Part shown: positions 21,072 through 23,859 of the stretch, one piece after another
Layout: every line of letters begins with the position of its first letter
Numbering within the stretch: position 1 is the first letter of the stretch
From: a virus
IMG/VR virus record: IMGVR_UViG_3300024265_000102
Span: 1 to 44,273 of that record
Length of the DNA stretch: 44,273 bases
Direction: 5' to 3' (one strand)
Made by a program: the position numbers and the translations under genes
The notes under the pieces: model-generated
Database searches by the model: none
What the model was told of the DNA's origin: nothing
Seen by the model: the letters and a program-made list of their open reading frames with translations, nothing else

Positions 21072-21497
21072 ATGGATATTTATTCATTTGCAGATGTAAG
21101 TTTTTTTGTACAAGGTAATGAAATAACAGGGTATGATGATGGTGATGATGTTATCACACTGGATCGGTTAAATGATTCAGCTTCACACATAATGGGTTTG
21201 GGTGGCAAAATGACGGTATCATTAAGTGATGACCGTTCTGGTTCCGCTGTTTTCAGACTGATGGCTACTTCAAATGATAACATTATCATGACTCAATTAA
21301 TATCCAGTCAAGAAAACGGGCTCTTTATTCCTATCTTTGCTCAAATGAAAGATAACCGAAATAAAGACTTGGGTTCAGGTACACAAGGTTATATTCTTAA
21401 GCCTGCCCCAATGACACGTGGACGAAATGTTCAAGCGCAAGAATGGACTATTGTCTTAGAACGGTTAGACCTGCTACATAAAGGCGGCGGTTTATAA
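21072..21497 (+). CDS. Tail tube protein, DUF3277 type
   Basis: The protein has 141 residues, with AAGGAG upstream. The pattern MDIYSFADVSFFVQG, DVITLDRLNDSASHIMG, GKMTVSLSDDRSG and QEWTIVLERLDLLHKGG is that of DUF3277 tube proteins that follow DUF3383 sheath genes. It builds the inner tube through which DNA passes. Confidence 0.88.
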   Translation: MDIYSFADVSFFVQGNEITGYDDGDDVITLDRLNDSASHIMGLGGKMTVSLSDDRSGSAVFRLMATSNDNIIMTQLISSQENGLFIPIFAQMKDNRNKDLGSGTQGYILKPAPMTRGRNVQAQEWTIVLERLDLLHKGGGL

Positions 21498-21506
21498 TAC
21501 CAGTTT

Positions 21507-21554
21507 GGTAAGGGGATCACTACGTAGTAACCCGGCAACTGCGTACCCCTTACC
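21507..21554 (+). other. Large two-stem hairpin between tube and tail chaperone genes
   Basis: GGTAAGGGG (21507-21515) pairs with CCCCTTACC (21546-21554). Inside, ACGTAGT (21522-21528) pairs with ACTGCGT (21538-21544) with one G-U pair. No U-tract follows, so it is not a plain terminator. Expression balance or RNA processing between the abundant tube and the chaperone is possible. Confidence 0.6.
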
Positions 21555-21596
21555 TACCTTATAAGTCCGGGAATATGATTAACCGGGAGAATAATC

Positions 21597-22055
21597 ATGG
21601 CTTGTGAAACATTTGAACAAGACGTTAGCGGGGCATTCTACGTAACCACACAATGGGATGCTACCAAACAAATGGTGATGAAACTGAAACTGATTAATAC
21701 TTTCGGTGACGCTCTATTTGAAATGTTGTCCATACTTACCAACGATACCAAGTCTAGTGAAAAACAAGACGCCAGCGGGGATAAGTTGAATGCTATTAAA
21801 CTTGCCTTAGACGCTCTGTTTAAGAAGGCGAATCCGGAAGAAGTTGTCCACTTGCTGAAGAGTGTTCTAACCAGCGGCCATACGAAGCGCGAAGGTAAGC
21901 GTATCACTGAAGATAATTTTGATACCATATATAATGACGCAGGCATAAAAGAAGCTTACATGGCTTTTATATTTGTCGTTAAGTCCAATTACTCGGATTT
22001 TTTCAAAGGCCAGAAAGCAGGGGAATTGCTGGCCAAGGTGGAGAATCAACTGTAG
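21597..22055 (+). CDS. Tail assembly chaperone, short form (G-like)
   Basis: The protein has 152 residues. A helical domain (MKLKLINTFGDALFEMLSIL, NAIKLALDALFKKANPEEVV) precedes a slippery site near the end. It lies between tube and tape measure, the position of G/GT-type chaperones in nearly all long-tailed phages. It coats the tape measure during tail assembly and is not in the virion. The GGGAGAATAATC leader gives a ribosome-binding site. Confidence 0.85.
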   Translation: MACETFEQDVSGAFYVTTQWDATKQMVMKLKLINTFGDALFEMLSILTNDTKSSEKQDASGDKLNAIKLALDALFKKANPEEVVHLLKSVLTSGHTKREGKRITEDNFDTIYNDAGIKEAYMAFIFVVKSNYSDFFKGQKAGELLAKVENQL

Positions 22056-22216
22056 ATTCTTCTCATTTCCCCAACATAGATCTATGGTTGCACCGCCCTG
22101 TAATAGCCGAGCCCCCGTTATGTACATTGGCTCAACTACAGGACGGCACATACAATATATGTGACGTAGCTAATATGAACGAATTACTCGACCTAAAAGC
22201 GAGCTTGAAAAAATAA
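21597..22216 (+). CDS. Tail assembly chaperone, -1 frameshift extended form (GT-like)
   Basis: At T TTT TTC (21998-22004) ribosomes can slip back one base after 136 codons and continue for 70 more (QRPESRGIAGQGGESTVDSS...MNELLDLKASLKK). The total is 206 residues, ending at TAA 22214-22216. That stop shares its A with the tape measure ATG, strong evidence that the extension is coding. The extension has no good start of its own. Confidence 0.85.
21998..22004 (+). promoter_or_regulatory. Programmed -1 ribosomal frameshift site
   Basis: This is a perfect X XXY YYZ heptamer (U UUU UUC) in the zero frame of the chaperone gene. The -1 frame is open from the TAA 17 bases upstream to the stop at 22214. 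Downstream GC-rich sequence may form a stimulatory structure, not resolved by eye. Confidence 0.85.
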
Positions 22217-23859
22217 TGGCCACGACAACACTCGACGAATTACTAGTTGGATTGGGTTTCGATTACGATCCAGAAGACCTTGAAAAATTCCAAAAGGATT
22301 TGGACAGTACTGTCGACACCATTAAAAAGCTCGCAACCACCTTGGCCTTGGGTACGGCTGCACTATTCGCTTTTACTACAGCTACTACAGCGGCCACCGA
22401 CGAACAGGGTAAATTAGCTGAGGAAACAGGGGTAGCGGTTGGCGTAATAGATGCTCTGCAATTTGCTAATAAGCGGGCCGGGGGAAGCGCTGATGGGTTG
22501 TCTTCAAGCTTGCAACAATTGGCGCTACGCATTGGTGAAACAGCCCGTGGTGTCGGTTCTGGTATCGAAGCATTCGGGATATTAGGAATATCGGTTACCG
22601 AGGCGAACGGGGCTTTAAAAACTACCGATCAAGTTCTATTGGAAGTTAGTAACCGATTTGAGAAATTAAGCCGTGTTGAACAAATTGAACTAGCTGATAA
22701 GCTGGGTCTACGTGATTCCATACGCTTACTCCAGCAGGGTTCTTCGGGAATACAAACCCTAATTAGAGACGCTCAAGCCCTCGGAGTAACCACCAAAGAA
22801 GACGCAGCATTATCGGCTGAGTTTCAAGACTCATTGACCGACATATGGCAAATCGTTAAACAAGTCTCCAGGGTCATAACCCGATCATTAGTTCCTATTC
22901 TTGATGACGCTAACGATAGTTTCACAGATTGGTGGAAAATCAATAGGCAGATTATCGAGCAGAACATTCCTGAATTTATAGCTCTTGCGGCTAAAGCTTT
23001 ACGCTTATTATCATTGGCGGCATTAGGTTTCATATCCATTAAGTTGTTGGGTACATTAGCTTCCTTAATCACCTTCTTAAATAAAACTACGGTTGCGGCT
23101 TTATTCCTTAATGGGGCGGTAGCTATACTCCCCTTACTCTTTGGTGCTGCGGCTATTGCTATCGCCTTATTAGCTGAAGATGCCAAAGAGTTCTTTGAAG
23201 GTGGGGAAAGCTTCATCGGTGATATGATAGAAAAATACCCCCAATGGGAAGACGAGATACGAAGTGTAGCGGCCCATCTGAATGCCTTAGTAGACATAAC
23301 AGATTTGATATTTAAAGGGTGGGATGAAATATTCAAACTGTTTTCCAGCGGAACGTTTTTCGAAGATTTAGAATTAAATATTAACCGATTGGTAAAAGAC
23401 TTGGGCGCTGCTGCTAGTGGCATTGCCGACGGGATAGAAGACAGTATCTCAGGTTTCCTAACGGGTGTCAAAGCTGATTTCTTTAGTTTTGTTAATGGTA
23501 TTATAGCAGATATCGATTCGTCAATTACCAATCTGATATCTAAGATCAAAGGTGTATTTTCATTCGATCTGTTGGGTAACACAAAGGTTGAGTCGAGTAG
23601 CAATGTCATCCCGTTGATGCAGGGCTTAAGTTCTAACAGGGAAGGAAGTGCTTCTCAGTTTAATCAGCCTTCTTTGTTTTCTAACAGAGATACCATTAAC
23701 AACTCTTCGGCTAGTAACGTGACTAGGTTTGAAGGAGACATTGTTATTAAAATAGACGGTAGTAAATCACCGCAACAAACTGGTATGGAAGTCCGTAAAG
23801 CACTGGAAGACATGACTAGACAAGCTTCTCGAAACTTAAGTAGCGCGGTGAAACTATAA
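22216..23859 (+). CDS. Tape measure protein
   Basis: The protein has 547 residues. The N-terminus has EDLEKFQKDLDSTVDTIKKL and an Ala/Thr-rich helix, then DEQGKLAEETGVAVGVIDAL and GLSSSLQQLALRIGETARG, typical of tape measure proteins. A hydrophobic region (about 255-320) may insert in the host membrane. The C-terminus has a Ser/Asn-rich linker. Length sets tail length; 547 residues implies a short contractile tail. The start is coupled to the chaperone extension stop. Confidence 0.88.
   Translation: MATTTLDELLVGLGFDYDPEDLEKFQKDLDSTVDTIKKLATTLALGTAALFAFTTATTAATDEQGKLAEETGVAVGVIDALQFANKRAGGSADGLSSSLQQLALRIGETARGVGSGIEAFGILGISVTEANGALKTTDQVLLEVSNRFEKLSRVEQIELADKLGLRDSIRLLQQGSSGIQTLIRDAQALGVTTKEDAALSAEFQDSLTDIWQIVKQVSRVITRSLVPILDDANDSFTDWWKINRQIIEQNIPEFIALAAKALRLLSLAALGFISIKLLGTLASLITFLNKTTVAALFLNGAVAILPLLFGAAAIAIALLAEDAKEFFEGGESFIGDMIEKYPQWEDEIRSVAAHLNALVDITDLIFKGWDEIFKLFSSGTFFEDLELNINRLVKDLGAAASGIADGIEDSISGFLTGVKADFFSFVNGIIADIDSSITNLISKIKGVFSFDLLGNTKVESSSNVIPLMQGLSSNREGSASQFNQPSLFSNRDTINNSSASNVTRFEGDIVIKIDGSKSPQQTGMEVRKALEDMTRQASRNLSSAVKL

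Follow-up and report, generated by a model that had tools for sequence, protein, structure and literature searches.

A probable programmed -1 frameshift in the tail assembly chaperone gene of a contractile-tail phage, and a conserved structured leader RNA in front of it

Genes and reading frames at the chaperone locus

The stretch of DNA analysed, referred to below as the window, comprises the 44,273 nt of an IMG/VR virus record (IMGVR_UViG_3300024265_000102), from whose sequence open reading frames, frames and junctions were read; all features described here lie on its plus strand. The gene of interest (21597..22055) encodes a zero-frame product of 152 aa, putatively equivalent to G or TAC-N, which matches Pfam PF21822 (Phage_TAC_15) at 4e-17 and the PHROG tail assembly chaperone family phrog_1613 at 1.3e-11, three PHROG chaperone families being matched altogether. 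Its AlphaFold model (pLDDT 81) retrieves predicted tail chaperones of other phages when BFVD is searched with Foldseek (best E 4e-13), among them the 'tape measure chaperone' of Citrobacter phage Moogle. Pfam, PHROG and Foldseek agree in placing this product among the tail assembly chaperones. A Foldseek search of the PDB yielded no significant match (best E 0.07), a search of solved structures by sequence nothing credible. As neither tblastn with the short form nor a megablast of 20.5 kb returned an annotated phage, no close isolate is known.

The neighbouring genes show the order typical of this chaperone system in lambda, as discussed below. The gene 5' of the chaperone (21072..21497) encodes a tail-tube-like virion structural protein (phrog_280 virion structural protein, 4.6e-30; PF11681, 5.2e-5), for which gene order suggests the role of tail tube, and the tail tape-measure protein (22216..23859; phrog_8125 tail length tape measure, 1.5e-58) is encoded directly downstream. 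A DUF3383 tail sheath is also encoded upstream of the chaperone gene, as befits a contractile-tail phage.

Near the 3' end of the chaperone gene the -1 frame has no stop between 21983 and a TAA at 22214-22216, which overlaps the tape-measure ATG at 22216 (TAATG). The slippery heptamer T TTT TTC (21998..22004) lies within this overlap, with zero-frame codons GAT TTT TTC, and a slip there joins 136 residues to 70 others, giving 206 aa with the junction peptide SNYSDFFQRPESR. The sequence-only reading that preceded this work had placed the heptamer in the zero frame and the end of the extension on the tape-measure start, and both placements prove correct to the base. It had also held that the extension lacks an independent start, which is borne out in substance, as among open reading frames of at least 20 aa this frame offers a single start codon, a TTG at 22088 that lies 28 residues inside the extension. 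The word TTTTTTC is neither rare nor enriched in the window (13 occurrences vs 15.3 expected in shuffles), so the meaning of this copy rests on its frame and position and on its conservation.

The extension (22004..22216, 70 aa plus stop), a presumptive T or TAC-C equivalent, matches Pfam PF21829 (DUF6889) at 5.6e-7 and phrog_4364 at 1e-15, both of which are labelled 'unknown function'. Its structure model has a low pTM (0.58), and the best viral match of that model is the GJ1 homologue.

Conservation of the slip site, the extension and a downstream stem

Homologues were collected as 80 IMG/VR loci fetched via the extension together with phage records, which reduced to 66 distinct loci. A canonical heptamer occurs at the homologous place, in the same frame, in 59 of the 66 (27 TTTTTTN and 32 AAATTTN), while the bodies of the same genes carry canonical heptamers at 20 of 8343 zero-frame codons, a background of 0.24% per codon. 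A heptamer is likewise present in each of four loci added later from contigs of bacterial genomes (L097 AAATTTT, L098 and L099 TTTTTTT, L100 TTTTTTC). The codon just ahead of the slip has T as its last base in 27/27 TTTTTTN loci and A in 32/32 AAATTTN loci. These counts are in part a product of the classification, for which a locus needed the heptamer; the weight lies with the 59/66 and with the varied amino acid of that codon, which can be D, S, A, G or R. This codon is read in the zero frame only, and a kept base under a varied amino acid points to selection on the nucleotides.

A canonical heptamer is missing in the other seven loci. In three of them (L017, L053 and L059) the homologous position reads G GAT TTG or G GAT TTA, with no TTTTTT, and four (L049, L056, L062 and L076) show no obvious slip site; L049, L056 and L062 retain the extension even so. 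In L061 (positions 661-921) and L069 (positions 2453-2713) GTCCTC and GAGGAC, downstream of T TTT TTA, might form a long-range stem (GTCCTC:GAGGAC) that encloses a loop of about 30 nt, which would be a different possible stimulator.

The extension has tblastn matches in 473 annotated phage records at the loose cut-off of E<=1, those in Chaseviridae reaching roughly E 1e-9 to 1e-11. Beyond the zero-frame stop, homologue pairs unsaturated in dS give dN/dS of 0.01-0.11; between the window and its relatives L001 and L002 dS is saturated and pN is 0.14-0.16. These values indicate that the extension is protein-coding and evolves under strong purifying selection. In the reference records its treatment varies: PM1 (PM1_050), phiEcoM-GJ1 (gp61) and PP101 have it as a separate hypothetical protein, most of it is left out of the annotation in SSEM1, pAh6.2TG and 4HA13, and a join of chaperone and extension is absent from all six records. 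The Chaseviridae reference records NC_010106, NC_023865, NC_047791 and NC_048875 carry it as a separate hypothetical gene or leave it unannotated, with no frameshift join. Among openly accessible papers on DUF6889, or on Chaseviridae or phiEcoM-GJ1 with frameshift, no title or abstract reports the site.

Downstream of the heptamer the sequence can form a stem-loop (22008..22034) by pairing of GGCCAG (22008-22013) with CTGGCC (22029-22034). In 34 of 65 loci all 6 bp of the stem can form in this register, compared with a mean of 1.9 and a maximum of 7 after shuffling of the sequence that follows. Both reading frames are coding here, so that a lack of variation would say little by itself, and it is the compensating changes that constitute the evidence. 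Of the 9 pairs in an alignment of 25 sequences, 5 have changed on both sides; the covariation of 0.229 exceeds that of shuffled alignments (0.121; reached in 0/500) and that obtained when the pairing is slid (at most 0.114). Compensating variants are GGCCAA:TTGGCC in L017, GGTCA:TGACC in L053 and L059, and GGGCTG:CAGCCC in Acinetobacter phage Ab105-1phi (L089). The comparison thus argues for a conserved, covarying stem downstream of the slip site, which is probably stimulatory. Folding of the 86 nt downstream in the window is overall no better than that of shuffles (z -0.19), so the stem rests on comparison and not on energy. The window could also form a pseudoknot between the loop GGGGAA (22020-22025) and TTCCCC (22067-22072), a candidate that was discarded, as it is not conserved in L001 or L002.

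Frameshifting and the competing explanations

Taken from comparative sequence evidence, a programmed -1 frameshift that makes two tail assembly chaperones from the gene at 21597 is very likely. Most ribosomes would stop at 22053-22055 and release the 152-aa form, and a minority, as we infer, would shift back by one base on the run GGATTTTTTC (21995-22004), presumably aided by the stem-loop at 22008-22034, and would continue to 22213 to give a 206-aa form of about 23 kDa with a C-terminal DUF6889 domain.

The sequence-only reading had called this frameshift textbook. The chaperone identity, the conserved slip site, the selected extension, the covarying stem and the gene order all sustain that description; the site itself sustains it less well, because a second heptamer, G GAT TTT (21995..22001), overlaps T TTT TTC. 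Slippage there, instead of or besides T TTT TTC, is a serious if less probable alternative, in which the P-site GAU would re-pair with GGA and the A-site UUU with UUU, the protein being identical. G GAT TTT matches the A AAT TTN of the relatives column for column, one codon upstream of T TTT TTC, and the three loci that have G GAT TTG or TTA manage with no TTTTTT at all. Spacing also speaks for it, as the stem begins 6 nt after G GAT TTT, the distance seen in the AAATTTN relatives, and only 3 nt after T TTT TTC. Moreover, G_GAU_UUU is a documented shift site, that of pea enation mosaic virus (PMC5009743, PMC4737148), although this is an unrelated plant RNA virus. However, GAU re-pairs with GGA more poorly than UUU with UUU, and in most Chaseviridae relatives T TTT TTC is preceded by a GAT with a non-G base before it, so that T TTT TTC appears to work alone there. 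We think that T TTT TTC is the more slippery of the two, with G GAT TTT possibly contributing. Both heptamers yield the same protein, and mass spectrometry could therefore show frameshifting and not which site slips.

The alternatives to ribosomal slippage fare much worse. The six-T run at 21998-22003 could in principle make RNA polymerase slip, the extension then being translated from mixed mRNAs, yet a run of six bases is short for bacterial transcriptional slippage, and the conserved downstream RNA stem fits slippage by the ribosome. Transcriptional slippage is highly improbable because half of the relatives, 32 homologues, use A AAT TTN at this place, most of them as AAATTTA or AAATTTG, forms with no long homopolymer. 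Even less credit is due to the extension as a small gene translated on its own, which is how the records of PM1, GJ1 and PP101 list it: the only start in the window with enough frame left is the TTG 28 residues in, in 55 of 64 loci the extension frame contains none of ATG, GTG and TTG upstream of the conserved core, and a separate gene would leave the conservation of the heptamer without a reason. That the overlap and heptamer reflect chance, or a sequencing error in a continuous gene, can be dismissed, for such heptamers do arise by chance in the window but isolate genomes share the arrangement, as do dozens of contigs that were assembled independently.

Programmed ribosomal frameshifting, the favoured explanation, is of the well-known lambda G/GT kind, and the present case is a new, unannotated member of it. 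The lambda slip site is G GGA AAG; here T TTT TTC overlaps G GAT TTT, the tail is contractile with a DUF3383 sheath, and the extension is DUF6889. The two systems share a chaperone gene directly before the tape measure, a -1 slip near its 3' end, and a short and a C-terminally extended form. The lambda chaperone gpG forms a coat around the tape measure, and gpGT binds the tube protein through its T part (PMC5009743). By analogy, the short form here may coat the tape-measure protein and the extra domain of the long form may recruit tail-tube subunits. That DUF6889 takes the role of lambda T is suggested by homology of position, not by sequence similarity to lambda T.

A close parallel is found in the TAC-N/TAC-NC chaperones of Vandenendeviridae and Andersonviridae (phage Adele), produced by a -1 frameshift at the motif GTTTTT (PMC12846349). 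They too are myovirus chaperones with a conserved T-rich -1 site and a downstream region mis-annotated as a hypothetical gene (PMC12846349), and the match of the window's chaperone model to the Moogle protein is a further point of agreement; the difference is that in the homologue set described here a covarying stem-loop accompanies TTTTTTN or AAATTTN. Chaseviridae (phiEcoM-GJ1, PM1, PP101, SSEM1 and pAh6.2TG) have a homologous extension and T TTT TTC at the homologous place, but differ in the sequence downstream, which has no GGCCAG stem.

If the frameshift is accepted, the annotation would be corrected for a whole group of contractile-tail phages, including the reference Chaseviridae, in which the extension is missing or appears as a separate hypothetical gene. 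DUF6889/phrog_4364, so far of 'unknown function', would gain a probable role in the long tail chaperone, as its C-terminal domain. The homologue set, in which the slip site varies between AAATTTN, TTTTTTN and GGATTTN over a covarying stem, offers a natural series on the evolution of a bacterial -1 site.

A structured leader RNA before the chaperone gene

The tube-like gene is separated from the chaperone ATG by 99 nt, and this interval holds a conserved structured leader RNA (21500..21598), recognised by comparative pairing and by a covariance model. Hairpin A (21507-21554) carries the loop CCCGG (21531-21535), to which two downstream copies of CCGGG (21567-21571 and 21583-21587) are complementary. 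The second copy overlaps GGGAG (21585-21589), the presumed Shine-Dalgarno sequence, and lies between the arms of a second predicted hairpin, B, formed by ATGATT (21575-21580) and AATCAT (21593-21598).

Leaders of similar length and build are present in 31 loci, and their loops and complements change together, as UAUCCCGG:CCGGGAUA in L001, UUUACCCG:CGGGUAAA in L002, CCGAUCG:UGAUCGG, found twice, in L017, and ACCAGCC:GGCUGGU in L058 and L070. For the two copies respectively, pairing of a loop with its own leader's copy exceeds pairing between the leaders of different phages (18.7 vs 15.3 and 16.2 vs 14.2), an excess reached in 0/5000 permutations and inflated by relatedness between loci. In the window itself the loop pairs with each copy over just 5 bp, which is not significant alone (p 0.075). 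An alignment of 16 leaders shows double changes at 19 of 33 pairs and a covariation of 0.332, compared with 0.200 in shuffled alignments (0/500) and at most 0.148 when slid; most of the double changes come from hairpin A, and few from the pseudoknot and hairpin B.

The covariance model was built from those 16 leaders, the window being excluded, and it scores the window leader at 33 bits (E 2.5e-6), the sole real match in 44 kb. Further matches to the model, with E no higher than 1.7e-5, lie in L001, L058, L097 and L017, in each case immediately upstream of the chaperone gene. When the model was run as a genome search the window leader was not reported, presumably owing to the looser first pass. 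Rfam gave no gathering-level match in the window and not even a weak one to the leader in seven relatives. The leader is absent from Chaseviridae, which have an intergenic region of 12-22 nt before the chaperone gene in its place. It is a conserved RNA outside Rfam and apparently undescribed.

We read the leader as a translational control element. We lean, by a small margin of belief, towards a more specific proposal, namely that it is an undescribed cis-regulatory RNA of about 100 nt in which the loop of hairpin A pairs either with the free copy or with the copy in the hairpin of the ribosome-binding site, a bistable pseudoknot or kissing-loop switch that would set the amount of chaperone. 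As a lead, the leader RNA is more novel than the frameshift. Should the switch be true, one gene would carry two RNA devices that set the ratios of short to long form and of chaperone to tube. The leader, if confirmed, would mean that a phage gene for a structural function is under translational control of a new type.
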